The translations under genes were made by a program, and so were the position numbers. A stretch of 64,000 bases of DNA, taken from assembly GCA_022822745.1 (NCBI GenBank), contig JAJEAO010000088.1:1-64000 (forward strand), given 5' to 3'. Of this stretch, positions 2,901 to 30,000 are shown in pieces. This DNA comes from Acidobacteriota bacterium. Lineage in GTDB: Bacteria; Acidobacteriota; Vicinamibacteria; Marinacidobacterales; Marinacidobacteraceae. The notes under the pieces are model-generated. The model was not told the DNA's origin, ran no database searches, and saw nothing but the letters and a program-made list of their open reading frames with translations. The stretch's first letter is position 1, and each line of letters begins with the position of its first letter.

Positions 2901-3869
2901 ATGAACGACGCCACGACCCCGCCGACCGGGATCTACGGCGTCGCGCCTCCCGGGGTCCAGGCGACCCGTGACCGCGGGGATGCGCCGGCGCTCTCGTGTC
3001 CGCTGTTCGAGGACGAAGGCGCCTTCCGGGCGCATCGCTCCGACGCGCCCGAACGGCCGAAGCGGCTCGCCTTCGCGGGCGCGGTGATGCGCACCGACGC
3101 GCAACTGACGCGCACTGGCGACGACGGCGAGGCGACGACCGGACTCGCCGGGAGCGTGGCGGCGGGAGCCGTCCTCGTCGCCGCTGGACAGGAGGCCCAG
3201 GTCGCCCGCACCACGGTCCGCCGGGTCATGATCTCCGGGGGCTCCCCGCGGATGCGACTGCCGGACCAGGCGGGGGGTTGGCGCTGGAGCGCGCTCGCCG
3301 CCGGGAGGCGCAATCGGCGGGCGCCGCGGCAGCGGCTTCAGTCGCTCATGCGGAGCGAGCTCGCCGGGGTGGCCGAGCGGTTATGCGCCGAGGGCTGGCT
3401 CACGCTCCTCGATGGACCGCTCCACGGGATCCGCGGTCGGCGAGGCCTGCCCGTCGTCGGCTACGTGAAGTCCCATCCGCGCCGGCTGCTCGACCCCGGG
3501 TCGTGGGCGCGAGTCCCCGGGCTCGCCGTGGGGGAGCGTTCAGGCCTTTTCGCCATCGGCGGGGAGCGCTTCGCCGCCTTTCTCCGGATGGCGGCGCCGG
3601 GTCCCTGGGGGAACGCGTGGTCCGGGATCGCACGCATCGAGGTGTCCGCCGCGATCGGCGAGCGGAAGGCCGCCGCGACCGCGGATCGCGTCCAGGCCTG
3701 TCTCCCCCGTTTCGCCTCCGGCCAGCCGGAAACCACGCGGGCCGCGGTCGCGCTGAGGCCGATCGCGGGTCTGAAGCGGCAGCTCCGTCACCTGCAGGGC
3801 GAACCCCGACTCGCGCTGCGGGCGGTGCGGGACGCCGTCACCGAACACAACCGGGAGGCATCCGCTTGA
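2901..3869 (+). CDS. nurA: NurA-like nuclease domain protein, partner of HerA
   Basis: NurA is a 5'-3' nuclease that works as a ring complex with the HerA translocase in DNA-end resection. This 322-aa protein shows the C-terminal signatures of bacterial NurA: LLDGPLHGIRG near residue 170, VGYVKSH, the SGLFAIGGERFAAFLRM strand, ARIEVSA, LPRFASG and RPIAGLKRQLRH. The first motif usually reads VDG with a catalytic Asp, but here the matching place reads FAGAVMRTDA. The conserved His expected after LPRFAS is also not obvious. It may therefore be catalytically altered, judged from family memory and not from a computed alignment. The stop overlaps the herA start by 4 bases. The upstream 250 bases show no clear promoter. 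Confidence 0.75.
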   Translation: MNDATTPPTGIYGVAPPGVQATRDRGDAPALSCPLFEDEGAFRAHRSDAPERPKRLAFAGAVMRTDAQLTRTGDDGEATTGLAGSVAAGAVLVAAGQEAQVARTTVRRVMISGGSPRMRLPDQAGGWRWSALAAGRRNRRAPRQRLQSLMRSELAGVAERLCAEGWLTLLDGPLHGIRGRRGLPVVGYVKSHPRRLLDPGSWARVPGLAVGERSGLFAIGGERFAAFLRMAAPGPWGNAWSGIARIEVSAAIGERKAAATADRVQACLPRFASGQPETTRAAVALRPIAGLKRQLRHLQGEPRLALRAVRDAVTEHNREASA

Positions 3870-5674
3870 CTTCGACCCCGACGCGGATCGGGCTGGTGGA
3901 CGGCTCGGTCGCAAGCGACTCCCGCATCTTCCACATCGTGCTCGATCCGGACGTGGATGTTCAGCTCGACGAGCTGCTCTGCGTGACGACCGAAACAGCC
4001 GATTCGGGCGCGGTGACCCACTACGGCGTCGTCACCGAGCTGAGGTCGCGCTTCGAAGGCGCCGATCTCCCCTCCGACACGAGCCGGGTGGTCGAGCAGA
4101 CCCTGCCGGCGGTGCTCGTTCGCCGCGCCGAGATCCGGGTGCTCCGGGTCGTGCCCGAGGTGTTCATCCCTCCGCGGCCAGGGGCGCCGGCGATGCGCGC
4201 CGAGGGCGAGCACCGCGCCCGGGCGCTGTTCGAGGACGTGATGACGCGGGGCCGGCTGCCGGTCGGGCTGGACCTCGGTGGCGAACCGGTCCACGCCGAC
4301 ATGCGGTTCGTGGATGGCCGCTCCGGCGGACATGTCTCGATCTCGGGGATCTCCGGCGTCGCTACGAAGACCTCCTACGCCCTCTTCCTGCTCTACCAGC
4401 TCCTCGAAACCGACCAGGGGATGGATCTCCTCGGCGGACGCTCCGAGCGGGAGAACGTGCGGGTTCTCATCTTCAACACGAAGGGAGAGGATCTGCTCCA
4501 TCTCGACCGGCCGAACCGCGAGTTCGCCCGGCGGCCGGAGGACCGGGCGCGGTGGGAGGCGCTCGGGGTCGCGACGCCGGGGCCGTTCCGCTCGGTGCGG
4601 TTGTACGCGCCGCGCGGCTCGGAGGCGAACGTCGCGAACGTCCGGTCGCGCGCCGCCGGCGATGTGGCGGCCTACGGCTGGACGCCGCAGCGGTTCATCC
4701 GCGAGCAGCTCCTGCAGTTCTGCGTCAGCGCCGGGGACGAACGTTCGACTCAGGTCGGCCTGGTGGAGCAACTGATCCGCGTCCAGCTCCTCCGTCGCCT
4801 CGCGCGACCGGAGGGCGACGATTCGGGCGCGGCGCTCATCCTCGAAGATCCGCCGGCGGGGGTGGGGACCGATCCGGATCAACTGGCGCGTCGCGAGCCG
4901 CAGTCGGCGCCCGCTTCCGCCGGGCGGATCGTCGGCGACTTCGGAGGACTGATCTCGCTCCTCGAGGAGGTCGCCGATGACAAGGCGCTGGCGAAGGAGT
5001 GGTACGGCCGGGCCACCGCCGGCACCCGCAACGCATTCCTCCGCCGCCTGTGGAAGCTGCGGCCGCGGCTCGGTCCGCTGATCGGACGGGATCTGACCCC
5101 GGTCTCGGCGGAGAACGGCCGCATCCACGTCGTGGACATCTCCCGGCTCCACGACGACGCGCAGCGCTTCGTCGTCGGCGCCCTCCTCGCCGAGGTCTGG
5201 GAGACGAAACAGGGGACCGGTCGCACCCCCCTGCGCTTCGTGCTGCTGGATGAACTCAACAAGTACGCCCCCGCCACCGGCTACTCGCCGCTCAAGGAGC
5301 TGCTCGTGGACATCGCCGAGCGGGGCCGATCCCTCGGGGTTCTGCTTGTCGGGGCGCAGCAGGCAGCTTCGGCCGTGACGCCCGCGCTTCCGCGGAACGC
5401 CTCGCTGAAGGTCGTCGGCCGGCTCGACGCCAGCGAGTCGGACTCCTACCGGTTCCTGTCCCCGGGACTGCGGCAGCGCGCCACGCGGCTCATGCCCGGG
5501 ACGATGGTCGTCTCGCAGCCGGTCGTCCCCGAGCCGATCCCGATCCGCTTCCCGTTCCCGCCCTTCGCGACGAACCCCGACGAAGCGGCTCGGGATGTCG
5601 AGGCCGAGAAGACCGAGACCGAGCGCATCCTGCGCAACGTGCGCTCCTACGGCGGGCTGGAGGACATCCTGTGA
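3866..5674 (+). CDS. herA: HerA-type DNA translocase ATPase
   Basis: Hexameric HerA/FtsK-superfamily motor predicted to pump DNA through the NurA ring. The 602-aa protein starts at TTG in the overlap TTGA with the nurA stop; no better start lies nearby, and the N-terminus RIGLVDGSVASDSRIFHI fits the HerA beta-barrel (HAS) domain. The P-loop is the variant GISGVATKTS (about residues 161-170), in which the usual GKT is TKT, a form I recall from bacterial HerA proteins. Walker B is FVLLDELNKYAP (about 457), followed by IAERGRSLGVLLVGAQQAAS with sensor and arginine-finger-like residues. It is coupled to nurA upstream and sbcD downstream by 4-base overlaps. HerA proteins are also found in phage-defence pairs, so a defence role is possible. 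Confidence 0.9.
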   Translation: MTSTPTRIGLVDGSVASDSRIFHIVLDPDVDVQLDELLCVTTETADSGAVTHYGVVTELRSRFEGADLPSDTSRVVEQTLPAVLVRRAEIRVLRVVPEVFIPPRPGAPAMRAEGEHRARALFEDVMTRGRLPVGLDLGGEPVHADMRFVDGRSGGHVSISGISGVATKTSYALFLLYQLLETDQGMDLLGGRSERENVRVLIFNTKGEDLLHLDRPNREFARRPEDRARWEALGVATPGPFRSVRLYAPRGSEANVANVRSRAAGDVAAYGWTPQRFIREQLLQFCVSAGDERSTQVGLVEQLIRVQLLRRLARPEGDDSGAALILEDPPAGVGTDPDQLARREPQSAPASAGRIVGDFGGLISLLEEVADDKALAKEWYGRATAGTRNAFLRRLWKLRPRLGPLIGRDLTPVSAENGRIHVVDISRLHDDAQRFVVGALLAEVWETKQGTGRTPLRFVLLDELNKYAPATGYSPLKELLVDIAERGRSLGVLLVGAQQAASAVTPALPRNASLKVVGRLDASESDSYRFLSPGLRQRATRLMPGTMVVSQPVVPEPIPIRFPFPPFATNPDEAARDVEAEKTETERILRNVRSYGGLEDIL

Positions 5675-6909
5675 AGCTGCTCCACACCTCGGACTGGCAC
5701 CTCGGCGCCCGGCTCGGCCGGGTGGAACGGGCGCCGGACCACCGGGCGGCGCTTCGCGGGCTGCTCCGGATCGCCGACGAGGAGCAGCCCGATCTGATCC
5801 TCCATACCGGGGATCTCTTCGACGCCTACCGGCCGCCATACGGCGCCCTCGAACTCGGCATCGTCGCTCTCGGTCGCCTGTCGCGGATCGCCCCGACCGT
5901 GGTGCTGTGCGGAAACCACGATTCCCCGCGGCTGCTCGGCGTGCTCGACCACCTCGCCGGCGCGCAGTCGCCGAAACGGCTGTGGTTTCTCACCCGGCCG
6001 GCCGTCTGGAGCCAGCCAGGCCATCCGGCGGTCGTCGCCTGCGTCCCCTTCCTCCGACCGGGCGCGATCGCGAACTACGCGACCGACGACCCGTCGCAGT
6101 TCGAGGGCAACTACGCCGACGGCATCCGGCTTCTGAACCATCGGCAGCTCGATCTGGCCCGCGAGGCGGCGGGATCGCGCGGCATCGTCCTCTACGCCGC
6201 CCATCTCCACGTCCACGGGGCCCGGCCCGGCCGGTCGGAGAAGCGCATGACCGTGGGCGACGACTACGCGACGCACCTCGACGGACTCCAGCGTGCGCTC
6301 TACTGCGCTTTCGGCCACATCCACGACCCGCAGCTCCTCCCCGGCGGCATCACCCGGGGACGCTACGCCGGCTCGCTGATCCCGCTCGATTTCGGCGAGA
6401 GCCGCCAGACGAAACAGGCGGTCGTCGTCGAGGTCGCCGAGGAAGTTCGCGTCGAGCCGCGGGAGCTCCCGGGCGGGCGGCCGCTCGTGGACTTCGACGG
6501 CACGCTCGACGAACTCGAGGCGCGCGCGGCGGACGGCGGGCTCGACGAGAGCATCCTGCGAGCCCGGGTGGTCTCCGACGAACCGGTGCCGGACCTGATG
6601 GACCGTCTCGCCGAATGGTCGCCGCGGTGCCACGTCTTCCATGTCGCCAACGCGGTTCGGAAGCAGGCGGTCAAGGCCGTCGCCACCCATCCCTCCGATG
6701 GGTCGGAGCCGCCGATCGAGGAGCTCTTCGAGGAATGGCGGACGACCCGGGGGGCCAGGATGGCGGCGCCTGCCGAGGCCGTTCGCAGCCTGTTCTCCGA
6801 GGCGCTCGGCGCCGCTGCCGGAGACGCGCCCGACTTCGGAACCGCCCGGCTGGCCGCCGAGGCGGACCGTGTCCTCGCCTCGCTCGCCGCCGCGCGGCGC
6901 CATCGCTGA
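5671..6909 (+). CDS. sbcD: Exonuclease subunit SbcD/Mre11
   Basis: Mn-dependent metallophosphatase-fold nuclease that pairs with SbcC to open hairpins and process double-strand ends. It has 412 aa with a GTG start in the overlap GTGA with herA. The metal-binding motifs appear in order: SDWHLG (D8, H10), HTGDLFD (about 45-50), CGNHDSP (about 80), HLHVHG (about 178) and FGHIHD (about 214). The capping domain follows. The C-terminal region from about 290 (MDRLAEWSPRCHVFHV onward) ends in an Ala-rich helical stretch and is expected to bind the SbcC coiled coil. The sbcC start is 3 bases after the stop, so the pair is translated together. Confidence 0.95.
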   Translation: MKLLHTSDWHLGARLGRVERAPDHRAALRGLLRIADEEQPDLILHTGDLFDAYRPPYGALELGIVALGRLSRIAPTVVLCGNHDSPRLLGVLDHLAGAQSPKRLWFLTRPAVWSQPGHPAVVACVPFLRPGAIANYATDDPSQFEGNYADGIRLLNHRQLDLAREAAGSRGIVLYAAHLHVHGARPGRSEKRMTVGDDYATHLDGLQRALYCAFGHIHDPQLLPGGITRGRYAGSLIPLDFGESRQTKQAVVVEVAEEVRVEPRELPGGRPLVDFDGTLDELEARAADGGLDESILRARVVSDEPVPDLMDRLAEWSPRCHVFHVANAVRKQAVKAVATHPSDGSEPPIEELFEEWRTTRGARMAAPAEAVRSLFSEALGAAAGDAPDFGTARLAAEADRVLASLAAARRHR

Positions 6910-6912
6910 GCC

Positions 6913-9900
6913 ATGCGCCCGCTCCACCTCAAGATCGAGGGACTGCGCTCCTTCCGCGCGCCGGTGACGCTCGACTTCGCCGGCCGCGACCACATCGCGA
7001 TCGTCGGCGACACCGGCGCCGGGAAGTCCTCCATCCTCGAGGCGATGACCTGGGCGCTCTACGGACGCACGACCTTCAGCGCGCAGGGCAAGCAGGAGCT
7101 GATGAACGACACATCGCGCGCGATGCGGGTCGTCCTCCGTTTCGGCCTCTCCGGCGAGACCTGGGAGATCGTCCGGGGCGCCCGCCGGAGCAAGGCGGGG
7201 AGAGTCGGCGCGGTGTGGGCGCAGCTCACCCGGATCGGCGAGGACGGCGAGCCGGAGGAGCGCATCGAGCAGGTTCGGCTGGTGAAGCAGCGGGTCGAAG
7301 CTCTGATCGGGCTCGACGGCGAAGCCTTCCTGCGGACCGTGATCCTCCCCCAGGGCCGATTCGCCCGCCTGCTCGTCGAAGACAAACCCGGCGCACGGAG
7401 CAAGATCCTGCGGCAGGTCTGGCGCACCGACGAGCTGGAGGCCGCGGGCCAGCGGGCCACCGAAGCGCTCCGCACCGCCGAGGCGATCCGCATCCGTCTC
7501 GAGCAGGAGGCGGACGCCAGCCCGGAGGACCCCGACGCGCACCTCGCCGAGCTGCGGCGGGCGCTCGAGGCGGCGAGAGCGCAGGTCGAGGTGACCGGCA
7601 GCGCCGCGTCGGAAGCCGAGGAGGCCGCAGACGCACTGGAGCGGGCGCAAGCGAAGGGGGCGACCGCGGCGGCAGTCCGCCGGCGACTCGGCTCGGTGGA
7701 TCTCGATGCGATCGCCACCGGACTCGCGCCGCTGGCCCGCCGAGCCGCCGATCTGGATCAGGAGGAGCGCGAACTCGATCGGGGCCGGGAGGCGCTCGAA
7801 GCCGAGCGCGACCGGATCCCGACCACGGATGGCCCCACCGTCCAGCAGGTCGCCACGGCGCTCTCGAAGCTCGACGGCCTCGGCCACTTCATCGAAGCCG
7901 CGGAGCGGGCGGCCGCCGAACTGCGGTCCGGCAGGAAGCGGGCTTCGGAGCAACGGGCGGCGGAGGCGGGTGTGGCGGCGAAGGCCGCCAGAGCCAGGAA
8001 GGCGAGCGAGGAACACGCGCCCGGCCGAGCCCCGCTCGAAAACGCTGCCCGGGAGGCGCGGAACCGCCGGAACGAGGTCGAGCGGCTCCACGCCGCGGCG
8101 GAAGATCGAAGCCTGGAGCTCCGGGGCGGCAGGCGCCGGCTCGACGGCCTCCAGCAGCAGGTGAGGCGCGCCGAGGCCGACTTCGCGGCTGCGGAAGAGC
8201 GCGCGGCTCGCGCGAAGCGGAAGGCGGACGAGGCCGACGAATGCCTCGCAGCCGCGCAGCGTTCGGACGCCGCCGCGCACGCCGCCCACGGACTCGCTCC
8301 CGGCGATTGCTGTCCGGTCTGCGAACGCGATCTCCCGGGTGGCTGGATCCCGCCGCCAGGAGAGGACATCGAGGCCGCAGCCGGACTCCTCCGGGAGGCC
8401 CGGCGCCTCGCGAGCGCCGGGGAGCGGCGACGGGAGAGGCTGCGCGGCGAACTCGGGGGCGCCCGGAACCAGGCTGCGGAGGCCAAGCTCTCCGCGACCG
8501 CGTTCACCACCCGTCTGGCGGAGGCGCGTCGCCGGCTCGCCGCGGTCGCCGGTGGGGATCCCGACGGCCCGCTGCCCGGACGGGATGTTCTCCTCGCTCC
8601 CCTGGACGAACAGCGGAAGCGGGCCGACAGCGCTCTCGCGGACCACAACCGCGTGGCTGAGGGACTCCTCCGGGAAGCAAGGGCGCGGGAGACCGAGGCA
8701 CAGCTCGCCCGCCAGGCCGTGGTGAGCGCCGACAGCGCGACGGCGAAGTCCCACCGATCCGCGATTCGCCATCGCGAGGCGCTCGCCGCCGCGATCGGGG
8801 CCATCCCCGGGGACTTCCGGCCGACGCTCGCCCTTCCTGCGGAACCGGCGGACTTGCGGGAAGTGGACCGGGCGCCGGTGGAGCAGACGCGGGAAGCCGC
8901 CCGGGCTCGACAGGCGGCGCTGAGGAAGCGGGAGCAGAAGCTCGCCCGTCTCGCGGCGCGGATCGCCGAGACCGAGCGCGGCCTGCGGAAGCTGGCCGAG
9001 CGGAGACGGAGCCAGATCATCGGGCCGCTCGTGGCGTTTCGGCGGCGGCTCGGACAGGACCGCGACGCCCTCGTCGCATCGGCCAGCCCGGTGGGGCTGG
9101 CGCGAGAGGTTCCCCATCCGGCCGGCGGCGAACCGCCGGCGCTCCTGGCCCATGCCCGCGACCTGGCGACGCTGCTCGAAGGAATCGAAAACGCCGCGAG
9201 CGCTCTCGCGGAGGAGGGCGCCCGGGAGGAGGCGATGGTTCGCGCCCGCGTCCGGGAGCTCGGCGAGCCGTCGGGCGATCCGGCTTCTCTCCTCGGGCGA
9301 GCCCGGCGACAGGCGGAGGAAGCGCGCCACCAGCAGCGCACGGCGCGGCGCGAGGTGGAGCGTTTCGCCGCGGTCGCCGACGATATCCGGCGACTCCGCG
9401 AGCTGCTCGACGAGGCGCAGCGGAGGGAGTGGGCGCTCCGAGACCTGTCGGAGGCGCTGAAACCGGGACGTTTCCTCAAGTGGCTGACGCTGCGGCGCTC
9501 GAAGGAACTTCTGATCCACGCCTCGAGGAAGCTCGGGGAGGTGAGCGGCGGACGCTACTCCTTCGTGGATCCGCAGGAGGTGGACGAGCGGTGGAGCGTT
9601 CTGGACAACGACTCGGGCGAGCCGCGCACCCCGGCGACGCTCTCGGGCGGGGAACAGTTCCTCGCCTCGCTCTCGCTCGCGCTCGGGATGGTCGAGATGA
9701 TGGAACGCACCGGAGGCAGGCTCGAGGCGCTCTTCCTCGACGAGGGCTTCGGGTCGCTCGACGCCCGGAGTCTCGACGCCGCGATCGCCGCCCTCGAAAC
9801 GGCGGCCGCGCATCGGATGGTCGCGGTGATCTCCCACATCCGGGCGGTGGCCGAGCAGGTGGACGATGTGCTGGCCGTGACCCGGGAGTCCACCGGGAGC

Positions 9901-10020
9901 CAGGTTCGGTGGCTCTCGAGGGCGGACCGGGAACGCTGGGCCACGAAGGAGGTCGGGCTCGATGCTCTGGCCTTGAGCGACGAGGCGGAGTCCGCCGCCG
10001 TCAACGGCCTCCTCGACTGA
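6913..10020 (+). CDS. sbcC: Exonuclease subunit SbcC/Rad50 SMC-like ATPase
   Basis: ABC-type SMC-like ATPase that clamps DNA and controls SbcD. It has 1035 aa: an N-terminal lobe with P-loop GDTGAGKSS (about 33-41) and the Q-loop region VILPQGRFARLL, long Ala/Arg/Glu-rich coiled coils, and a zinc hook CCPVCERD with CxxC at about 467-470. A second coil leads to the C-terminal lobe with signature LSGGEQFLASLS (about 910), Walker B LEALFLDEGFGSLD (about 935) and the H-loop VAVISHI. The length suits SbcC. It is the last gene of the nurA-herA-sbcD-sbcC operon and is followed by a hairpin with a short T run. Confidence 0.95.
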   Translation: MRPLHLKIEGLRSFRAPVTLDFAGRDHIAIVGDTGAGKSSILEAMTWALYGRTTFSAQGKQELMNDTSRAMRVVLRFGLSGETWEIVRGARRSKAGRVGAVWAQLTRIGEDGEPEERIEQVRLVKQRVEALIGLDGEAFLRTVILPQGRFARLLVEDKPGARSKILRQVWRTDELEAAGQRATEALRTAEAIRIRLEQEADASPEDPDAHLAELRRALEAARAQVEVTGSAASEAEEAADALERAQAKGATAAAVRRRLGSVDLDAIATGLAPLARRAADLDQEERELDRGREALEAERDRIPTTDGPTVQQVATALSKLDGLGHFIEAAERAAAELRSGRKRASEQRAAEAGVAAKAARARKASEEHAPGRAPLENAAREARNRRNEVERLHAAAEDRSLELRGGRRRLDGLQQQVRRAEADFAAAEERAARAKRKADEADECLAAAQRSDAAAHAAHGLAPGDCCPVCERDLPGGWIPPPGEDIEAAAGLLREARRLASAGERRRERLRGELGGARNQAAEAKLSATAFTTRLAEARRRLAAVAGGDPDGPLPGRDVLLAPLDEQRKRADSALADHNRVAEGLLREARARETEAQLARQAVVSADSATAKSHRSAIRHREALAAAIGAIPGDFRPTLALPAEPADLREVDRAPVEQTREAARARQAALRKREQKLARLAARIAETERGLRKLAERRRSQIIGPLVAFRRRLGQDRDALVASASPVGLAREVPHPAGGEPPALLAHARDLATLLEGIENAASALAEEGAREEAMVRARVRELGEPSGDPASLLGRARRQAEEARHQQRTARREVERFAAVADDIRRLRELLDEAQRREWALRDLSEALKPGRFLKWLTLRRSKELLIHASRKLGEVSGGRYSFVDPQEVDERWSVLDNDSGEPRTPATLSGGEQFLASLSLALGMVEMMERTGGRLEALFLDEGFGSLDARSLDAAIAALETAAAHRMVAVISHIRAVAEQVDDVLAVTRESTGSQVRWLSRADRERWATKEVGLDALALSDEAESAAVNGLLD

Positions 10021-10021
10021 T

Positions 10022-10044
10022 GCCCCCCGGCGGGGGCCATTTTC
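10022..10044 (+). terminator. Probable intrinsic terminator after sbcC
   Basis: Directly after the sbcC stop, GCCCCC (10022-10027) and GGGGGC (10032-10037) form a perfect 6-bp stem around the loop CGGC, followed by CATTTTCC. The T run is short (four), so termination may be weak, but no other hairpin of this kind is seen between sbcC and the next gene. Confidence 0.55.
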
Positions 10045-16955: not shown

Positions 16956-19900
16956 TCAGGCGGCGGTCCGTTGGCCGTAGCTCAGGCGGAACACGACGCC
17001 GGTCATCCAGCGCTTGAAGTCGGGGTCGTCCTGGAAGCGCCGGAAGAGCTCGGTGTCGTCCTGCATGATGGCCATCATCACGCGCTGCAGCGCCCGGTCG
17101 TGCTCGATGCGGGCGTTCTCCCGGTCCGAGTTCTCCCGGGCGTTGCGGAACGCCGGATCCTTCCCCACCATTCCGGGCAGATCCTTCGTGATGATCCTCC
17201 TCACCCGGTCGCTGTCCTCCCACGGAATGTCCCCCCAGCGAGTGTTGAAGTCGGCCACGATGTTGGACAGCAGGTCCAGCTCGACTTCTCCCCTGCCCCC
17301 GCCCTGCTCTCCGAGCACCGGATCGATCTCCGCGTCCGCGTTTTCGAGCAGGATCTTCTGGACGGCCTGCTTCTCGGCCCGGTAGCTGTCCATGTCGATC
17401 GTCTCGAGGATGCCCTTCGAGAGATCGTCCTCCGCGGGTGACGGCAGCTTCGGGATCAGGAAGTTCAGGAAGATGGACAGCTCCTCCCATCGCCTCCGGT
17501 TGTAGGGGAGGATGGAGCCCAGGAACGCGTAGAGCCGCCCGAACGCCTTGGCGCGGCCCTTGAACCGCACCTGTTCGTCCTCGCCAAGGTCGCTCGCATA
17601 GACATCCACGCAGCGGTCGAGGATCGGGTCGAGGACGTCCCGGTCCGCCCCGTCGAGATACCGCTCCACGAACTTCCGCACTTCGTCCGGCGAGTACACC
17701 CCGGCGGCGTCCAGTTCGCCCTGGAGGTCGTGGAGCTTGTTCGGGTCCGTCTCGTCGGCGAGGATCGTCGTCTGGTAGTAGTCCGAAAACGCCTTCTGGA
17801 TCGTGTCGGTGTCGTTCTGAAAGTCGAGCACGAACACGTCGCGCTTCCCCGGGTGCGCCCGGTTGAGCCGGGACAGGGTCTGCACCGCCCGGATTCCCGA
17901 GAGCGGCTTGTCCACGTACATCGTGTGAAGCAGCGGCTCGTCGTAGCCGGTCTGGAACTTCTCGGCGCAGATGAGGAAACGATAGGGGTCCTCGCGGAAC
18001 ATCGCGGCGATCTTCGCGGACGGGAAACCGTTCAGGCTGGTCTCGGTCACGGCCGAGCCGTCGTGCTTTTTCTCGCCAGAGAAGGCGACGATCGCCTGGT
18101 AGGGGCTGCGGCACTCGATCAGATACTGACGGATCGCGTGGAAATACTGGATCGCCCGCGCGACGCGGCTGGTCACCACCATCGCCCGGGCCTTGCCGGC
18201 CACGCGGCGCCGGGCGGCGACCTGCTGGTGGAAGTGGTCCACCATGATCTCGGCCTTCAGGCGGATCGCGTGATCGTGCCCCTCGACGTAACGCCGGAGC
18301 TTCTTGTGGGCCTTCTTCACGTCGAACTCGGGATCGTCGTCCACGCTTCGCGCCAGCCGGTAGTAGCTCTGGACCGGGGTGTAGTGGCGGATCACGTCCA
18401 GGATGAAGCCCTCCTCGATCGCCTGCTTCATGCTGTAGTTGTGGAAGGGCCGGTGCTTGACGGTCCCGTCGCTCTGCGGGGCGGCGGCGCCGAAGATCTC
18501 CAGGGTCTTGTTCTTGGGCGTCGCGGTAAAGGCGAAGTAGCTGGCGTTCGTGAGCAACTTCCTCGACTCCATCAGCCGGTTGATCTGGTCCTCGGTGGTC
18601 TCGTTCTCGCGCTTCGCTCCGGCCTCGCCCAGCGCCTGCGCCATCGCCGCGCTCGTCTTCCCTCCCTGGCTGGAGTGGGCCTCGTCAATGATGATCGCGA
18701 AGGTCCGGCCGCGCTGCCGGTTGCCGATCTCGTCGAGGATGAACGGGAATTTCTGGATCGTGGAGATGATGATCTTCTTGCCCTGCTCGAGGAACCGGCG
18801 CAGGTCGCCCGATTTCTCGGCATGGCCCACGGTGGACCGGACCTGAGCCGACTTCCGGATCGTGTCGCGGATCTGTCGGTCGAGGACGCGTCGGTCGGTG
18901 ACAACGATGATCGAGTCGAAGACCGACTTCCCGTCGCGCTCGAGCGGGATGAGCCGGTGCGCCAGCCACGCGATCGAGAAGCTCTTGCCGCTCCCCGCCG
19001 AGTGCTGGATCAGGTAGCGCTTGCCGGGCCCGTGTCGGCCCGCATCGTCGAGGAGCCGACGCACGACATCGAGCTGCTGGTAGCGCGGCCAGATCTGGAC
19101 CTTCGCCTTGTTCCGGCCCTTCGCGTCCTTCGGCTGCAGGATCTGCGCGTAGTTCTCGAGGATGTCGGCCACGCTCTCCCGGGCAAGGATCCGGCGCCAC
19201 AGGTAGTCCGAGCGGAGTCCCGTCGGGTTCGGCGGGTTCCCAGCCCCGGAGCGCCAGCCGCGGTTGAACGGGAGGAACCACGACCTCCGGCCGCGAAGGT
19301 GGGTGCAGAAATGGACCTCGTTTTCGTCCACGGCGAAGTGCGCGACGCAGCGTCCGAAGCGGAAGAGCGGCTCCCGCGGGCTGCGATCCTTCCGGTACTG
19401 CTCGACGGCATCGCCGACATTCTGCCGCGTCAGGAGGTTCTTCAGCTCGAAGGTGAAGACCGGAAGTCCGTTGATGAAGAGTGCGATGTCCAAGGCGCGC
19501 CCGGTCTGGTCCCGGCTGTAGCGAAGCTGGCGGGTGACGCTGAACCGGTTCTGCCAGAAGAGCCGCCGGGCGGTCTCGTTCGCGGCGGACGGGATGCCGT
19601 AGAACAGGTCGAGGTCGAGAGGCCCGTGCTTCAGCCCGCCGCGCAGGACGGCGATGGTGCCCCGGCGATTGATCTCACCCTGGAGGCGGGCGAGGAACTT
19701 GCGGCGAGTGGGCCCGTCCTCGTCGAGCCGGAGGGCGGGCGCGAGGTCCGGCTGGGTCTCGCGGAGGAAGGCGCGAAGCTGAAAGAGGTCCACGCACCAG
19801 TCGCGGTCGTAGTCGCGGTGATCCCCGGGCGACCAGCCGACCCCGCCGTAGGGGCGCGGCTCTTCTCCGGCTCGCTCGCCCGAGGACGGCTCGCAAGGAT

Positions 19901-19961
19901 CGCCGGTGAGGGCCCGGCAGATCAGTTCCTCGAGGCTCCGCTCGCTCAGGTCACTGCTCAC
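16956..19961 (-). CDS. hsdR: Type I restriction enzyme R subunit (HsdR)
   Basis: Motor-nuclease subunit of a type I restriction system, translocating DNA and cutting away from the site. It has 1001 aa with a GTG start at 19961 overlapping the hsdS stop (GTGA). The N-terminal nuclease region includes ALDIALFINGLPVFTFELKN (Asp, then Glu-x-Lys, about 160-175). The SF2 helicase shows P-loop HSAGSGKSFSIAWLA (about 320), VVTDRRVLDRQI, DEAH box AIIIDEAHSSQ (about 424), FAFTATPKNKT (about 482), TGYDEPLLHTMYVDKPL and QTLSRLNRAHPGK. The C-terminal helical part is complete to FRLSYGQRTAA. It appears intact, unlike hsdM upstream. Confidence 0.95.
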   Translation of the reverse strand: MSSDLSERSLEELICRALTGDPCEPSSGERAGEEPRPYGGVGWSPGDHRDYDRDWCVDLFQLRAFLRETQPDLAPALRLDEDGPTRRKFLARLQGEINRRGTIAVLRGGLKHGPLDLDLFYGIPSAANETARRLFWQNRFSVTRQLRYSRDQTGRALDIALFINGLPVFTFELKNLLTRQNVGDAVEQYRKDRSPREPLFRFGRCVAHFAVDENEVHFCTHLRGRRSWFLPFNRGWRSGAGNPPNPTGLRSDYLWRRILARESVADILENYAQILQPKDAKGRNKAKVQIWPRYQQLDVVRRLLDDAGRHGPGKRYLIQHSAGSGKSFSIAWLAHRLIPLERDGKSVFDSIIVVTDRRVLDRQIRDTIRKSAQVRSTVGHAEKSGDLRRFLEQGKKIIISTIQKFPFILDEIGNRQRGRTFAIIIDEAHSSQGGKTSAAMAQALGEAGAKRENETTEDQINRLMESRKLLTNASYFAFTATPKNKTLEIFGAAAPQSDGTVKHRPFHNYSMKQAIEEGFILDVIRHYTPVQSYYRLARSVDDDPEFDVKKAHKKLRRYVEGHDHAIRLKAEIMVDHFHQQVAARRRVAGKARAMVVTSRVARAIQYFHAIRQYLIECRSPYQAIVAFSGEKKHDGSAVTETSLNGFPSAKIAAMFREDPYRFLICAEKFQTGYDEPLLHTMYVDKPLSGIRAVQTLSRLNRAHPGKRDVFVLDFQNDTDTIQKAFSDYYQTTILADETDPNKLHDLQGELDAAGVYSPDEVRKFVERYLDGADRDVLDPILDRCVDVYASDLGEDEQVRFKGRAKAFGRLYAFLGSILPYNRRRWEELSIFLNFLIPKLPSPAEDDLSKGILETIDMDSYRAEKQAVQKILLENADAEIDPVLGEQGGGRGEVELDLLSNIVADFNTRWGDIPWEDSDRVRRIITKDLPGMVGKDPAFRNARENSDRENARIEHDRALQRVMMAIMQDDTELFRRFQDDPDFKRWMTGVVFRLSYGQRTAA

Positions 19962-21442
19962 CGCTGATCCTCCCCAAGGTTCTCCCCCACCCGGTCCTCC
20001 GTCTCCAACAGAACCTCCTGCTCCCCGTCTCCACCCGATCCGTCCTCATCCAGGGCCTTGGCCGCCTCGCGCACATCCAGCTTCCCGGTGACCACATCGG
20101 AGATGAGTCGCGACCGATACTCCTGTGCGAGGTGAATCTGCCGCCGAACGGTCGCTATCGCGCCACTCGTCCATTTCATGGTACGCGAGAGATGGGCAAC
20201 CACAGCCCTTTGCTCGAGTACCGGTGGCACGACAATCCGGACAGCCGCAGCGCCGCTAGCACTCAGATTACGCATCGTCGTTCCGACGGAGTGGGCTTCT
20301 AGAGCCTGCCGGCCAGGGCCGGAGCCCAAGACATATACCAAGAATGCCGGAAGGAGTGAGGTGCCTACTGTCCGGATGCGCATACTCCCGGTCCCGCAGA
20401 CCCAGCCAGACTCCGTTTGGCCTATTCGAGCACACCGCCCCAGATCCCCGCGTCGCGCCATCACTACGTCCCCATGCTGGAGTCGGTGTCGCTGGAGTTC
20501 GCGAGCCTTCGATGTCGAAACGGTCACACTCCGATTGGATACTACCCGCCCACGCTTCAAGTGGGATGGGTTGATGACGGGTACTTGCCCATCCACGTAA
20601 TCCCTCTGATGGAGTTGACTCCCGAACGGCCCAGTCTGAATCAATTCGCACACTGCTCGAAGTGAAGACACGTGCCAGTGTGAAGGGATCCTGCGCCGAG
20701 ATTCCACTCCCAAGTCCATGTAGGTAGGATGCGGTCGGCCGGTTCGAACATCAATCTGACCCGTGACGGCCTGATGGATGACGGCCTGCTTCTGCTCCTC
20801 CAGCAGCTCGATCAGCCTCATCTTGGCTGAGACATATGCCTCAAGGGCAGCCACGGCGTTGTGCAGATACCGCGCGATAGCCCTCTGCTCGAAGAGTGAT
20901 GGCGTGAGAATCACGAGGCGCTTAAGATCTCTCGTGTACAGATGTACGATCGTAAACCCACACCCCATCTTCGCCTTCTGAGATGCTGCCCCCGGTGCGG
21001 AGGTGGCCCACCCCAGATAATCGGGATCCACGGACGTAACCGGCCGAAGAATAATGACATCACCACCACAACACGCTTGACATCTCATGAGGTTCACCGC
21101 CGACCGGCCGATCTCGTCCGTGGTTTCGCCCGAGCTTGCAAAGAGTACATCGCCATGCCGAATCGGCGTGTAGGAGCTTACGTGAGACTCCGAGACGTAG
21201 GCCTTGGTATTCGTGATATGCGCCTCGTGGAACGTATAGAGATCTCCGTAACGAACGCACGGCACCCCAGACCGAACTTCATCCCGCTTGCTGCCACCAG
21301 AACCCTTTGTGAACCGCCCCAAGGAGCGCAGTTGGCGTACGCCCCACGCAGCTGGGATCTGGCCCAGGCAATCCCGGCCGGAGTCCTTGTAGGCGGCGTA
21401 GGGTCGTAAGCCGCTAGCGGCGATGGCGGGCGCGGTCGTCAC
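19958..21442 (-). CDS. hsdS: Type I restriction specificity subunit (HsdS)
   Basis: Recognises the bipartite DNA target for both methylation and restriction. It has 494 aa. The GTG at 21442 overlaps the stop of the upstream small gene (GTGA), and the N-terminus AAYKDSGRDCLGQIPAAW matches the typical YKDSGxxWLGxIPxxW start of HsdS. There are two target-recognition domains: one after LGRFTKGSGGSKRDEV, and one after RRIPSHWHVSSLRAVCELIQTGPFG. Each is followed by a conserved helix (LFEQRAIARYLHNAV and VLEQRAVVAHLSRTM). Parts of this gene (about 20.2-21.3 kb) look clearly less GC-rich than their surroundings, as is common for exchanged recognition domains. Confidence 0.92.
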   Translation of the reverse strand: MTTAPAIAASGLRPYAAYKDSGRDCLGQIPAAWGVRQLRSLGRFTKGSGGSKRDEVRSGVPCVRYGDLYTFHEAHITNTKAYVSESHVSSYTPIRHGDVLFASSGETTDEIGRSAVNLMRCQACCGGDVIILRPVTSVDPDYLGWATSAPGAASQKAKMGCGFTIVHLYTRDLKRLVILTPSLFEQRAIARYLHNAVAALEAYVSAKMRLIELLEEQKQAVIHQAVTGQIDVRTGRPHPTYMDLGVESRRRIPSHWHVSSLRAVCELIQTGPFGSQLHQRDYVDGQVPVINPSHLKRGRVVSNRSVTVSTSKARELQRHRLQHGDVVMARRGDLGRCARIGQTESGWVCGTGSMRIRTVGTSLLPAFLVYVLGSGPGRQALEAHSVGTTMRNLSASGAAAVRIVVPPVLEQRAVVAHLSRTMKWTSGAIATVRRQIHLAQEYRSRLISDVVTGKLDVREAAKALDEDGSGGDGEQEVLLETEDRVGENLGEDQR

Positions 21443-21687
21443 TCGTCGTCGCTGGCCTTGGCGTTGGTCGCCGCCTCGGGGTCCGGGCGGGGTGGCACTG
21501 CACCCGGCGCCACGATCCGATCGAGGATCGCGGCGAGGCCGGGGTCTCGCCGGATCCTGGCGTGGCTCCACGCCCGCTGTTCCTCGAAAGACATGTCCTT
21601 CGTCTCCTCGTAGATCCGATCCCGAGTCTCGCGCGTCCACTTGACGCAGTCGAAACCCTCGATGGGAGGCCCCCACTTCACGGGCAT
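21439..21687 (-). CDS. Small antitoxin-like protein, copy 2
   Basis: 82-aa protein starting MPVKWGPPIEGFDCVKWTRE. The central part FDCVKWTRETRDRIYEETK with DMSFEEQRAW is closely similar to the neighbouring copy (FDCMKWKRETRDRL, MTWEELTTW), so the two arose by duplication. I recall small proteins with this FDCVKxxRExRxxIYEETKxMSFEE pattern next to PIN-domain toxins, which suggests an antitoxin role. The start at 21687 is one base after the previous stop; a longer start at 21705 would overlap it by 17 bases. The C-terminus is low-complexity and acidic. Its stop overlaps the hsdS start. Confidence 0.65.
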   Translation of the reverse strand: MPVKWGPPIEGFDCVKWTRETRDRIYEETKDMSFEEQRAWSHARIRRDPGLAAILDRIVAPGAVPPRPDPEAATNAKASDDE

Positions 21688-21688
21688 G

Positions 21689-21931
21689 TCACACCCGAGG
21701 CGCATCGAGAGTATCCCTCCCGGCCGCCTGCTTCCGGATCGGCCCGCGGCGGGGGGGCACGATCCGCGCCTTGGGCATGCGCGAGAAGAAGGGATGCCGA
21801 TCCGCCTGTCCTTCCAGCCAGGTCGTGAGCTCCTCCCAGGTCATGGTCGCCATCTTCCGGCTGAGCCGGTCGCGGGTCTCGCGCTTCCACTTCATGCAGT
21901 CGAAACTCTTCTCGCTGCCATCACTCGTCAT
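21689..21931 (-). CDS. Small antitoxin-like protein, copy 1
   Basis: 80-aa protein with the core KSFDCMKWKRETRDRL, then KMATMTWEELTTWLEGQAD, and a basic C-terminal tail (RIVPPRRGPIRKQAAGR). It begins 11 bases before the end of the PIN-domain reading frame and is followed at once by its paralogue, so all are translationally linked. Position right after a PIN domain and the shared core support an antitoxin-like function. That is inference: neither protein has a DNA-binding domain I can recognise. Confidence 0.65.
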   Translation of the reverse strand: MTSDGSEKSFDCMKWKRETRDRLSRKMATMTWEELTTWLEGQADRHPFFSRMPKARIVPPRRGPIRKQAAGRDTLDAPRV

Positions 21932-22376
21932 CGTCGAAATCCTCCGGTGTGCAGATCCCCACGGAACGGTATCCCAAATTCCGGTTCACGCGGTCGTACT
22001 GGCGCATTCGTCTTTCGTTCACGATGTCCCGGAAGTTCCAGCTCACCAGAGCGTCCACCCCCGTCGTCGAGGCGATGGCGATATGGAGGGCATCCGCACG
22101 CATCTTCTCGGTGAGGGCGCCGCTCGCGATGTAATGGTCCGCGAGGGCCCGGGCCTCCGCCGTGAGCTGGACGCGCTCGGTAGCCTCGGGGGGCAGAGAG
22201 AAAAAGGCATCCTGAACGGCCTTCGGAGCACCATCGAGCTCCTCCAACATCACGGAGGACACGACCAGGGTGATCTCGCCGCCCGCGACTCGATCCATCA
22301 GGCGGCGCGACGCGGTCCGAAACTCCTCGTCCTCGCACCCACCGATGACCGAGGTGTCGGCATAGACCCGGAGCTT
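21921..22376 (-). CDS. PIN-domain RNase-like module, in frame with HsdM
   Basis: About 151 residues with PIN-fold marks: KLRVYADTSVIGG (first Asp), a helix and SSVMLEELDG (acidic residues), RADALHIAIASTTGVDALVSWNFRDIV (the later Asp residues and the SWN motif). Such domains are usually VapC-like toxin RNases of about this size starting with M(K)LRVYxDTS. No ATG, GTG or TTG stands in frame just before KLRVYADTS, and no stop separates it from the HsdM C-terminus, so as written it is a fusion. Two antitoxin-like genes follow. It could also be a free toxin whose start codon was lost. Confidence 0.75.
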   Translation of the reverse strand, partial: KLRVYADTSVIGGCEDEEFRTASRRLMDRVAGGEITLVVSSVMLEELDGAPKAVQDAFFSLPPEATERVQLTAEARALADHYIASGALTEKMRADALHIAIASTTGVDALVSWNFRDIVNERRMRQYDRVNRNLGYRSVGICTPEDFDDDE

Positions 22377-24544
22377 GCGGTACCTGACCCGTGACTCGCG
22401 GGCGAGGAAACCTCCGGTGATCTGGCTGAGCAGGCCCTCGGCCTCGCGCTCGGTGGCGAGGATGTCCGCGGTGATCTCCTCCAGCGTGCGCATCGGCTTG
22501 GGCTTGTAGAACACCCGGTTGAAGCTGATCTCGTAGCCGATCTTGACGCTGCCCTCGTCGTACCAGGCGTCCGCCGCCCACGGCAGCACCTCCTGCCGGA
22601 GGAAGGCCTCGATGCCACCCTCCTCGAGGAGCGAGATCTGCTCGGTGTCGCGAAGCTCGGAGTCCCTTTCGTACTCGACGACGCGCGTCCCCCGCCCCTC
22701 GCCGACCGCGAAACGCCCGCGGATCGGATCGGCGGCCGTTCCCCGGGGCAGCACCTTGTCAATGACCGGCTCCGCCGCCTCGTCGCGGTCCGCGAGATGG
22801 GCGTGAAGCAGCCCCCTCCGCTTGATCGTGAGTCTGGTCCTCCGGCCGCCGAGCCGCTTCAGCTCACCCCTCACCTCGTCCTCGACCGCGGCCAGATGCC
22901 GGTGCGGGCCGGCGCCGATGCGCTCCGCGACCGCTCCCGCCGCCTCGGCGAGCGCCGGATCTCCCGCCGCCCGGCACGCCACCCAGAACGGCTCCAGCCG
23001 CGCCTCCGAGAGATCCACCGCGAGCCGCAGCGGCCGATCCACCGTGACCCTCCAGTGGCCGAAGAAGCGGTTCTCGAAGATCCGGCTCTCCTCGCTCTCC
23101 TCGAAGTCGAGGAAGGTCCGGCAGATCCGCTCGATCTCCGCCTCGCCGAGCTCGCAGTTCTTCTGGCCCAGGTTCTTGCGGAGCGGCCGGAACCAGTTCG
23201 TCGCATCGATCAACTGCACCTTGCCGCGGCGGTGCTCGGGCTTCCGGTTCGTGAGAACCCAGATATAGGTGGCGATCCCGGTGTTGTAGAACATGTTCAG
23301 CGGGAGGGCGACGATCGCTTCCAGCCAGTCGTTTTCCAGGATCCAGCGCCGGATGTTGCTCTCCCCTGCCCCGCCGACCCGGTGAAGAGCGAGCTGCCGT
23401 TGTGGACTTCGGCGATGCGGCTGCCGAGTTTCGTCCCCCGCTTCATCTTGGAGAGCATGTTCACGAGGAAGAGCATCTGCCCGTCGCTCGTCCGCGTCAC
23501 GAGCGAGTACTCGGGATCTCCGGCGTGCTCGATCACGAAGCGCGGATCGCGCATCTCCTTCTTGCCGCCCATCCGCTTCAGGTCGGTCTTCCAGCTCTTC
23601 CCGTAGGGCGGGTTGGAGAGCATGAAGTCGAACTCCCGATGCCCGAACGCGTCGCTGGAGAGCGTGGAGTGCTCGGGCCCGCCGATGATGTTGTCGGCGG
23701 CTCGCCCCTCCCCCTTGAGGAGGAGGTCGGCCTTGCAGATGGCGTAGGTCTCGCCGTTGATCTCCTGCCCGTAGGGATGGGCCGAGACCTCCTTGCCGCG
23801 GTCCTCCGCGATCTGCTGCAGCACTTCCTCGGCCACGGTCAGCATGCCGCCGGTCCCGCATGCGCCGTCATAGAGCAGGTAGGTGCCGGACTCGATCCGG
23901 TCGGCGACGGGGAGGAAGACAAGCTTCGCCATCAGAGTCACGGCGTCGCGGGGCGTGAAATGCTCGCCCGCTTCTTCGTTGTTTTCCTCGTTGAACCGCC
24001 GGATCAGCTCCTCGAACACGGTCCCCATGCCGTGGTTGTCCAGCCCCGGACGAAGGATCTCGCCGTCCGGCCCCCGGATGGGCTCGGGGCCCAGATTCAG
24101 CTCGGGGGCGGTCAGCTTCTCGATGAGCGATCCGAGCGCGTCCGCCTTCGAGAGACGGGGGATCTGGTTGCGGAACTCGAAGTTGTCGAGGATCTCCTGC
24201 ACGTTCGGCGAGAAGCCGTCGAGGAAGTCCTCGAAGTCGGCGCGGAGCTGCTGCCGGCTGGCGCGGGAGCGGAGGTCGTGGAGGGTGAACTTCGACGTGT
24301 TGTAGAACGCCTGCCCGGCGGCCGAACGGAGCGGGCCATCCTGCTCGACGAGCCCGATCCGGTCCACGGTCTCCTTCATGGCGAGCACCTTCTCCCGGGT
24401 GGGCTCGAGGACCGCATCCAGCCGCCGGAGGACGGTCATCGGAAGGATCACGTCCCGATACTTGCCGCGGACGTACACGTCGCGGAGAACATCGTCGGCG
24501 ATACCCCAGATGTAGCCGGCGACCCAGCTCAGATCCCGGTTCAC
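21921..24544 (-). pseudogene. hsdM: Type I methyltransferase HsdM, frameshifted, read through into a PIN domain
   Basis: The N-terminal frame (GTG at 24544) gives an HsdM start MNRDLSWVAGYIWGIADDVL, GEHFTPRDAVTLMAKL, SAM motif YDGACGTGGM and catalytic motif FDFMLSNPPYGKSWK, and is normal to SSLFTGSAGQG. There the frame is lost. The continuation ESNIRRWILENDWLEAIVAL and FYNTGIATYIWVL is in another frame. One missing G in the run at about 23363-23366 explains the change. The second frame finishes the HsdM C-terminus (EEITADILATEREAEGLLSQITGGF) and, with no stop, continues into a PIN domain ending at 21921. The broken frame may be a real mutation, phase variation in a short G run, or a sequence error. 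Confidence 0.85.
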
Positions 24545-27002: not shown

Positions 27003-30000
27003 ATGAGAGTGGAGGTCGTTCGCTGCGCGCCCCCGGTGAACGAGAGCGAGCGGCTGGCCGCCGACCAGCTCAAGACGCGCCTGATCTCCCAGCTCGGAGA
27101 CGGGACGTGGTGGCTCTTCACGAACCTCCTGTTCTCCGCCACCCCGGAACGCCAGCCCGACGAGATCGACATCGTGGCCCTCGGGCCTCCGGGGATCCGT
27201 CTCATCGAGGTGAAGCACTGGACCGGCTCGTGGGTCCGGCGGCACCCCGGCCGGGTCGAGGACGAAGCGGATCGCGTCACGCGCAAGGCGCAGCGACTCG
27301 GCACCACGCTTCGCCGGACCGTCGCGAGTCTCCGCTTCGTCGAGGGGGTCTTCCTCGTCACCGAGTCCGCCCGCAAGGTGCGAGAGCTCCGGAAGCTGGC
27401 GCCGGTTCGGGGCGTGCCGTTCTACACGCTCCCGACCTGGCGCGAGGCGCTGGGGCTCGGCGCCCCGGCCACGCTTTCCGAAGGCGAGGTCGAGGTTCTC
27501 GCCCATCAACTCAAGCGCCGCCAGCCGCCCGGTCGAGCGAAGCGGCCCCAGCGAATCGCCGGATACACGAACCTGAAGCTGCGGTCCCCGACGGAGGAGC
27601 GCTTCCACCGAGTGTTCGACGCGGTTCACCATTCGCGTCAGGATCGCGTCGTTTTGCACCTCTACGACCTGTCGGCGGGAGAGGATCACGGGCAGCCGGA
27701 GCGGGACTGGAAGCGGCTCCACGAGCTGCAGCGCTATGGATGGGCGCCTCGCCTCGTGGATTCGCTCCAGGATCTCCCCGGCCACCACGGCGAAGTGCAG
27801 TTCTTCACGGCCGCGAACGAAGCGGCCCCCGACCTGCGCCGCCGCGTGGCGGACGCGGACTGGGATTCCCGCGACCGGGTGAAGTTCGCCGCCGAAACGG
27901 TTTCGGGGCTCCGGGAACTGTGGAGCGCCGGAAGTCCGGACGGCGAGCTGCTTCGGGCGGCCGCCCTCAGCGACAAAGTGATCCGCGTCCGCCAGGACCA
28001 GACCCCGCTCTTCGACACCTTCGTCCCCTTCCCCTCGTCGGAGAGCGACAGGCCGGAATCCGGCGGAGGGGACGCGTCTGCGCCCGCAGACGCCGCCGAA
28101 GACGGTGTGAACGCGCTTCTCGCGATGCTGGCCGATGTCTTCGAGGGCCGGAAGGATCGCTGGGGACGCGGGGCCCGCGAGATCCTCGAACGCTGGCCGC
28201 GAACCGCCCCGCCGAAGCGACTCGGAAACATCGGTTCGGCGCTCACCGAGTTATCCGAAAAAGCAGCGAAGCCCGCGCCCGGGAACGCGGATTCGTGGGC
28301 GGAGGGAGAGGAGATTCACTGCGACGGCCACCTCTACCGCGTTGTCGCGCCGATCGGCGTCACTTCCGCCATCCGGAACTTCCAGGTCGTGGAACTGGAT
28401 CAGGCCACCGGTCGGGAACTCGGGGCGCACATCGCGCTGGCGTCGGCCGACGAAGCCGCGGGGCGGGATCTCCGCGCCGCGTACGCTCGGGCCGCCTCCC
28501 TGCCCGCTCACCCCTGCCTCGGAGCAGTCGGCGCCGTAGCGCCCGAGTGGCGCCCCGATCGGTTTGCGGCCGTGCTGCCGGCAAGCGACGGCGCTTCCCT
28601 TGATGAGTACTCCGGGGTGCTCCCGATTCTGGCCGAGGACCTGGGCGAATCCTCGACCGAGGCGCTCGTCCTGAGGTGGCTGCGCGGCGTCTGCGGCGCG
28701 CTCGACGTGATGCACCGGAACGGCGTGGTCCATCGGAATGTGCGTCCCGGCAACCTGATCGTCACCGGAGGCGACCTCGTGCTCTCCGGCCTCGAGCGGG
28801 TCGAACGCTCCGATGCGACGCGACCGGCATCGGGACGCGCCACCGCGCAGGACGATCTTCGCGCCCTGGCAAAGAGCATCCACGACGTTCTGTGGCCCGA
28901 AGAAACCACGGATCCCTCGACACAAGTCGAACACGAAGCGGACCGGGACGAGTTCCCGGTGGTCGCACCGTTCCTGGATCGCGCGATGGGAGGCGATTCC
29001 GGGCGACCGCTCGACTCGGCGGCGGAGGCCCTCCGGCTCCTGAGCCCGAAGGAGGAACCTCGGGATGTCGCGCCCGAGCCGCGGTCCCGAAACCGCGTTC
29101 CGTGGCTGCGTCAGCTTCTCCAGTCCTATCCGGGGTCGCGCTGGGGAAACCGCGAAACGCGCGGGCTGGACAGCGAGTTCGCCGAGAAGACCTATGTTCC
29201 GACCGAGCTGGAGGTGTCCCTGGAACAGGACATCCGGGAGCGCCGCGTCCGCCTGGTGGTTCTCTGCGGGAACGCCGGTGACGGGAAGACGGCGCTCCTG
29301 CAGCATCTCGCCAGGCGCCTCGGGATCGGGACGGCCAGCTCCGCCGAGCGAATTCTCGAAGGCAGGCTGTCCGACGGCGGGACCGTGCGCATGAACTTCG
29401 ACGGCTCCGCGGCGTGGGACGGACGGTCCGCGACCGAGCTGCTCGACGAGTTCCTGAACCCCTTCCAGCAGGGGCCGCCCGAGGAGGATCTCGTTCATCT
29501 GCTCGCGGTCAATGACGGCCGGCTCCTCGAGTGGATCGAGGAGTACGAGAGCGAGACTCCCCTCACCGAGGCGCTCTCGGAGGCCGTTTACGGCAACCTG
29601 CCCGCCGAGGCTTCACACATCCGGTTCGAGAATCTGAACCACCGCTCGCTGGTGGGGAAGCGGACATCCGATGGATCCCGAGTCGAGACCCGCTTCGCCG
29701 ACCGGCTCGTTGACGCCCTCTACGGCGGCGAAAGCGCCGCCGAGACGTGGCGCCCCTGTCGGACCTGCACGGCGCAGGAGCGTTGCGAGGTCTTCCGCGC
29801 GGCCAGCGTCTTCGGTCCCGCGCCGCTCGCTCCGGCTGAAGTACGCGACCGTGCGCGCGGGCGGCTCTTCGAGGCGCTCCAGGCGGTCCATCTCCGTGGA
29901 GAGACCCACATCACCGTGCGCGAGCTTCGCGCGGCGCTGGTGTACATCCTCTTCGGGACCGACGACTGCGAGGACTACCACGAGAGCGACCGACCCGCCG

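Follow-up and report, generated by a model that had tools for sequence, protein, structure and literature searches.

How the work of cutting is divided between HerA-NurA and Mre11-Rad50 is unsettled, and the locus described here raises that question in a pointed form: what does NurA contribute when it has lost the residues with which its relatives cut DNA? The locus lies within a stretch of 64,000 nucleotides from an Acidobacteriota bacterium (GenBank assembly GCA_022822745.1, contig JAJEAO010000088.1, positions 1 to 64,000), hereafter the window, and consists of four adjacent open reading frames (ORFs) on the forward strand. The first is a nurA homologue of 322 aa (2901..3869) in which the NurA fold appears to be kept and the catalytic motif residues are lost. 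It is followed by herA, for a Deinococcus-type hexameric DNA translocase (3866..5674; TTG start, TTGA overlap with the nurA stop), by sbcD, for an Mre11-type nuclease with intact phosphoesterase motifs (5671..6909; GTG start, GTGA overlap with the herA stop), and, after a 3-base gap, by sbcC, for a Rad50-type ATPase (6913..10020; ATG start). An earlier note on this DNA, made from its letters alone, had claimed these four ORFs, the two overlaps and the gap, and all are present; that they are a nurA-herA-sbcD-sbcC operon is close to certain. What the note missed is the loss of catalytic residues in the first gene.

The extent of this loss was gauged by comparing the active site with those of 68 other distinct NurA homologues, using the numbering of Deinococcus radiodurans NurA (drNurA). 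At codons 58-62 (3072..3086, forward strand, as are the other sites) the window protein reads FAGAV in place of the (F/V)(V/I)DG motif of all other NurAs (FVDGV), such that G60 aligns with drNurA D53; D53 and G54 are present in 68/68 of the other proteins and are absent here. Likewise, the conserved E155, a Glu in 66/68 of the others, is replaced by Leu154 (3360..3362), with a Glu (E153) standing one residue earlier. Furthermore, codons 276-284 (3726..3752) encode PETTRAAVA instead of the usual HRDxRAPxN: the Arg is kept (R280, drNurA R309) while the Asp, Pro and Asn are lost, P311 and N313 having become A282 and A284 (Pro in 63 and Asn in 62 of the 68 others), and the C-terminal RAPxN motif is accordingly missing. 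Other parts of the site are retained, specifically the equivalents of K201 and R309 (K190 and R280) and, likewise, those of D184 and E272. All of the changes are in-frame substitutions. A local frameshift was considered as the cause of the lost motifs and rejected, as the DNA reads R64, R280 and LRPIAGL in the normal frame.

These changes stand out against the rest of the operon. In the columns that are invariant among all other aligned NurAs, the window protein changes 6/24 residues, compared with 0-2 in the other relatives tested and 4 in drNurA. HerA, SbcD and SbcC of the same genome together change 2/183 invariant residues (1/109, 0/32 and 1/42, respectively), and the difference between NurA and these three proteins is unlikely to be due to chance (Fisher p 3e-5). 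The functional weight of active-site residues is known from directed mutants: D53A abolishes all nuclease activity of drNurA, as do K201A and R309A (PMC9960219), and the D49A mutant of Thermococcus kodakarensis NurA, altered in the equivalent motif, is also dead (PMC12977600). Judged by its motifs, the window NurA is very probably nuclease-dead, and among the homologues examined no lineage other than this one shows such a loss of catalytic motif residues.

The placement of such an altered protein in the NurA family requires care. As single proteins, genes 1 and 2 have no Pfam match, and NCBIfam likewise names neither NurA nor HerA; a reading based on Pfam only would therefore wrongly refute NurA. 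Alignments of NurA (A1) and HerA (A2) were instead made from homologues gathered from whole genomes and named metagenome-assembled genomes (MAGs) and then used in profile searches. The NurA profile matches D. radiodurans NurA (PDB 7f6d, chain entry 7f6d_H) with E 1.6e-55 and TM1739 (1zup) with E 1.4e-19, and thus places the first gene where the earlier note had put it, a step at which that note had allowed its reading might fail. PF09376 matches 7/13 of the NurA relatives directly and does not match the window copy. An AlphaFold model of the window protein (predicted local distance difference test score 85.7, predicted template modelling score 0.84) gave Z 24.7 to 1zup, 23.4 to 7f6d and 15.1 to the archaeal 2ygk in a structure search, in which many RNase H-like folds, such as endonuclease V and Argonaute, ranked below the NurAs. 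As modelled, gene 1 has an RNase H-like NurA fold together with family-level NurA similarity. Because Gly60 replaces the catalytic Asp of motif I, it is best filed as a NurA homologue and not as a NurA nuclease.

The identities of the other three genes are more straightforward. The HerA profile matches D. radiodurans HerA (7f6d_B) with E 2e-204 over positions 4-549 and archaeal HerA (4d2i) with only E 1.3; similarity to drHerA is full-length and takes in the HAS-barrel and a RecA-like ATPase with Walker motifs, and 108/109 invariant residues are kept. By sequence affinity this HerA is of the bacterial Deinococcus type, not the archaeal. Its P-loop (residues 161-170), GISGVATKTS, departs from the usual GK(S/T) spacing, and a P-loop of this type is common to almost the entire HerA family in alignment A2, drHerA included. 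SbcD scores 120.1 bits with TIGR00619 (cut-off 77.65), with phosphoesterase motifs present and none of its 32 invariant residues changed. SbcC matches TIGR00618 with E 1.9e-53, below the full-length cut-off of that model, as well as AAA_23 and SbcC_Walker_B, and carries Walker A, a CPVC hook (a weak Pfam match, E 0.05), signature and Walker B motifs, with a single change in 42 invariant residues. On these matches and motifs the identities of SbcD and SbcC are unambiguous. The names and order of the genes given by the earlier note are therefore borne out by the NurA and HerA profiles and the SbcD and SbcC models. Its description of the set as archaeal-style holds in part: as in the archaeal HerA-NurA-Mre11-Rad50 operon, four functional types share one operon, whereas the proteins themselves differ in type, as HerA, SbcD and SbcC all score best with bacterial structures or models, SbcD and SbcC by far. 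PADLOC matches to mad8, mad3 and HerA, which would suggest a MADS system, were rejected as generic ATPase matches; the mad8 model also picks up SbcC and a third ATPase of the window.

What, then, might a disarmed NurA do? The interpretation we favour, at roughly even confidence, is that the window protein is a pseudonuclease of natural origin, acting as a cap or regulator of HerA and leaving the cutting to SbcCD; that a dead NurA is still useful as a HerA cofactor seems about as likely as its opposite. A pseudonuclease serving HerA is favoured because drNurA D53A still acts on HerA, modulating HerA-stimulated RecJ (PMC4663267), and because wild-type NurA greatly stimulates the ATPase of HerA (PMC9960219). 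The pattern of conservation also bears on this. In columns that are not fully invariant, the window NurA agrees with the family consensus at rates of 0.72, 0.83, 0.55 and 0.36 by conservation class, compared with 0.72, 0.80, 0.56 and 0.33 for the NurA of a Longimicrobiales MAG (L010); in these columns it appears to be conserved as well as active orthologues are. Its tree branch is long (0.88), but its ratio to the HerA branch falls within the spread of relatives whose motifs are intact, and overall acceleration of NurA was set aside, as the branch lengths gave no clear sign of it. In the mechanism we envisage, HerA would form a hexameric ring that threads and pumps duplex DNA, and SbcCD (Mre11-Rad50) would recognise and cut ends and hairpins, opening or cleaning the DNA end. 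The dead NurA would stay as a structural or regulatory cap that stimulates the HerA ATPase, gates DNA or stabilises HerA, and modulates partner nucleases, with resection completed by SbcD or by other nucleases such as AddAB/RecB-type enzymes. Nuclease domains of the latter type are found in the window genome and in all 60 genomes tested, and so the organism does not depend on the four-gene operon alone. A more specific version, in which a non-cutting NurA cap has been selected and HerA has become purely a pump or clamp for DNA that supplies SbcCD, such that the two are coupled without NurA cleavage, is plausible but carries distinctly less confidence.

Several observations weigh against a working pseudonuclease, and some of them suit a rival account, in which nurA has only begun to turn into a pseudogene, the operon is breaking down in this lineage, and HerA and SbcCD work on beside a functionless NurA. 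The GC content of nurA at second codon positions is the highest of 25 (0.61 vs 0.49-0.57), which would be a sign of relaxed constraint, and 16/69 of the NurA columns that are invariant in the subclade are changed; both are as expected of decay. The N-terminal Trp (drNurA W8) and the pin region are unrecognisable. In D. radiodurans, complementation with D53A was unsuccessful (PMC9960219), and a dead NurA is therefore not sufficient in that organism. The disarmed NurA is also known from one MAG only, without a close relative, and the Glu one residue from the lost E155 could in principle act as a stand-in. Decay gains further from the absence of the genes in 9/9 other genomes of the same family and from partial losses in two genomes of the same order: one (G158, locus L217 on contig C81) has sbcDC with a 34-residue HerA-like remnant upstream, and the other (G160, locus L216 on contig C165, 5.4 kb) lacks herA and has a nurA interrupted by an in-frame TGA. 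It is less easily reconciled with a frame that is intact over 322 codons and still overlaps herA (weak evidence at 71% GC), with moderately conserved NurA columns that are kept as in active orthologues, or with a NurA/HerA branch ratio no more extreme than those of active relatives; the confident fold prediction says little here, as it is carried by the alignment itself. Decay is a serious rival, which we place below the pseudonuclease interpretation and at about the level, or just short, of its more specific version. The remaining possibility is that NurA is still an active nuclease with a changed metal site (D171, E247, K190, R280, and E153 or D66) in an ordinary end-resection machine. The retained equivalents of D184, K201, E272 and R309 and the acidic residues at D66 and at E153, beside the lost E155, would allow for this, but the motif I Asp is universal in the 68 homologues, its mutation kills activity in two species (drNurA D53A, PMC9960219; T. 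kodakarensis D49A, PMC12977600), and several further motif residues have been lost together, all of which makes an active enzyme improbable.

It is also useful to consider how widespread the set is. In a scan that covered 193 genomes of the class, HerA is found in 25/193 and NurA in 24/193, in nearly identical sets of genomes, with neither HerA nor NurA in any of the nine other genomes of the window's own family (0/9). In the class, every contig of sufficient length that was searched with a suitable nurA query shows the order nurA-herA-sbcD-sbcC; in G159 and G161, which have HerA and belong to the same taxonomic order, nothing matched NurA at E 0.001. SbcD scores above the family cut-off in 11/11 HerA-positive and 3/49 HerA-negative relatives (Fisher p 1e-9), a co-occurrence indicating that SbcCD in this class largely resides in the four-gene operon. 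Beyond the class, the set recurs in Gemmatimonadota and Chloroflexota. Members of this HerA family are present in 15/251 sampled genomes of the phylum of a Chloroflexi MAG. In the phylum of the Longimicrobiales MAG, 182/395 sampled genomes have NurA matches, which are mostly weak and to a divergent NurA type. Where the order was checked, in a subset, it is nurA-herA-sbcD-sbcC even with proteins that are ~30% identical, and a permuted order with nurA after sbcC also occurs. One 2.1-Mb genome (HRbin24, G333) has two HerA copies, both in four-gene sets, with nurA first in one (L213) and last in the other (L012), and in the Longimicrobiales MAG (L010, 9803-11426) the herA-sbcD spacing is about 1.2-1.6 kb and an extra gene may be inserted. 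The set is also carried on plasmids of Streptomyces, Candidatus Chlorohelix and Sphaerospermopsis (Actinomycetota, Chloroflexota and Cyanobacteriota), with nurA annotated just as "hypothetical protein" (L243 13413-14447, L245 5876-6871 and L246 5946-6986).

The arrangement is far beyond chance, since the identical gene order recurs in tens of genomes. The view of the earlier note that the four genes act as one unit is upheld by the co-occurrence of HerA and SbcD and by an order conserved across phyla. Its statement that in bacteria SbcCD or a HerA-NurA pair usually occurs without the other fails for this HerA clade, in which the four-gene set is the rule; the set had also already been described in Oceanithermus profundus (Blesa 2017, PMC5448004). 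Whether the set is a conserved housekeeping operon, which the note had named as a finding that would count against it, receives a divided answer, as the order is conserved where the genes are present and their presence is patchy. The four-gene set is a known, recurring bacterial arrangement, not an exceptional one, and constitutes a recurring bacterial module for DNA-end processing. Recent transfer from Gemmatimonadota is not needed as an explanation of the window copy, as a family of the same class (f7) has copies that are at least equally close (72-73% HerA identity).

Comparison with known systems helps to separate what is familiar from what is new. D. radiodurans NurA-HerA (PDB 7f6d; PMC9960219) resembles the window pair in the sequence of both proteins, in fold and in the nurA-herA order, but its NurA has an intact active site, and a link of SbcCD to HerA-NurA in that organism has been stated as open (PMC4663267). 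O. profundus, also a bacterium, has the same four-gene set, with sbcD-sbcC downstream of nurA-hepA, although the set is described in one sentence and NurA is not reported to be catalytically altered (PMC5448004). The four-gene set is hence already known, and what is new here is a naturally disarmed NurA. A natural operon with a NurA that lacks the catalytic Asp, in which HerA and SbcCD are conserved, offers a ready-made case of separation of function. If NurA is indeed a selected non-cutting cap, nature would have produced an equivalent of the D53A mutant made in the laboratory, and this would argue strongly that bacterial HerA-NurA and SbcCD make up a single machine. That the four genes occur so widely, with NurA annotated as a hypothetical protein in annotated plasmid records, suggests that the coupling of HerA-NurA to SbcCD in bacteria is under-recognised.

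A further question is whether the module serves repair or defence. Relatives in Deinococcus and Thermus have been studied as repair genes. In the sampled families the module lies at a fixed locus beside genes for citrate synthase, NifU-like, tRNA-synthetase-like, MacB or TonB-receptor proteins; among 10 neighbours, one Fic gene is the only defence-type match, and the nearest neighbours in the window are metabolic. These fixed loci beside mostly housekeeping genes favour a repair operon over a defence island, and they speak against the degradation of phage DNA that the earlier note had proposed. An anti-phage or anti-plasmid system would nonetheless draw support from the patchy distribution, from a Streptomyces plasmid copy beside Wadjet-like TIGR02680/TIGR02678 genes, from a Chlorohelix plasmid copy near a TIR-domain protein, from another copy on a cyanobacterial plasmid, and from the restriction system and SspFG/DndH-like cassette at 17-38 kb of the window. 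TdpAB, which is tied to DNA phosphorothioation-linked defence, also has one chain that is NurA-like in fold (PDB 8wfd, 8wet; Z 13 to the window NurA model), but this is a distant fold match and a family separate from that of the window NurA. A defence role is the less likely of the two, and we regard it as improbable for the module as a whole; the plasmid copies, one of them beside Wadjet-like genes, do lend it some weight.

On two unrelated plasmids (L243 of Streptomyces and L245 of Chlorohelix), a gene for an ImmA/IrrE-type metallopeptidase is found a short way upstream of the four-gene set. In Deinococcus the response to DNA damage is under the control of IrrE/PprI, and so this neighbour may point to a link with damage sensing.

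Around the operon, the closest neighbours within the window are metabolic genes. A sodium:solute symporter gene (171-1595) and, directly upstream of the operon, a ddl-like gene (1595-2650; D-Ala-D-Ala ligase, named by eye) precede nurA, and genes for an NHL-repeat protein and an amidohydrolase lie downstream. Mis-binning of the contig, which could have brought in a rare operon, was ruled out, as ddl and a gene near the opposite end of the contig are 61-73% identical to their counterparts in genomes of the same family. Directly 3′ of the sbcC stop is a terminator-like GC-rich hairpin followed by TTTT (10022..10037, forward strand; a consensus match only), which is probably the end of the operon; in a scan for such hairpins the sites occur at about the chance rate, and its position just past the sbcC stop is the sole argument for it. 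Farther along, a type I restriction system occupies 16956-24544 on the reverse strand, with HsdR at 16956-19961 and an HsdM that is split by a frameshift (23297-24544 and 21921-23294), the second piece of which runs on into a PIN-like domain. Three adjacent large genes follow on the forward strand (27036-37751), for a NERD and SspF-like protein (1266 aa), a weakly SspG-like protein (597 aa) and a 1701-aa protein with a C-terminal DndH/HerA-like ATPase, and these resemblances suggest a divergent defence cassette of the Dnd/Ssp type.

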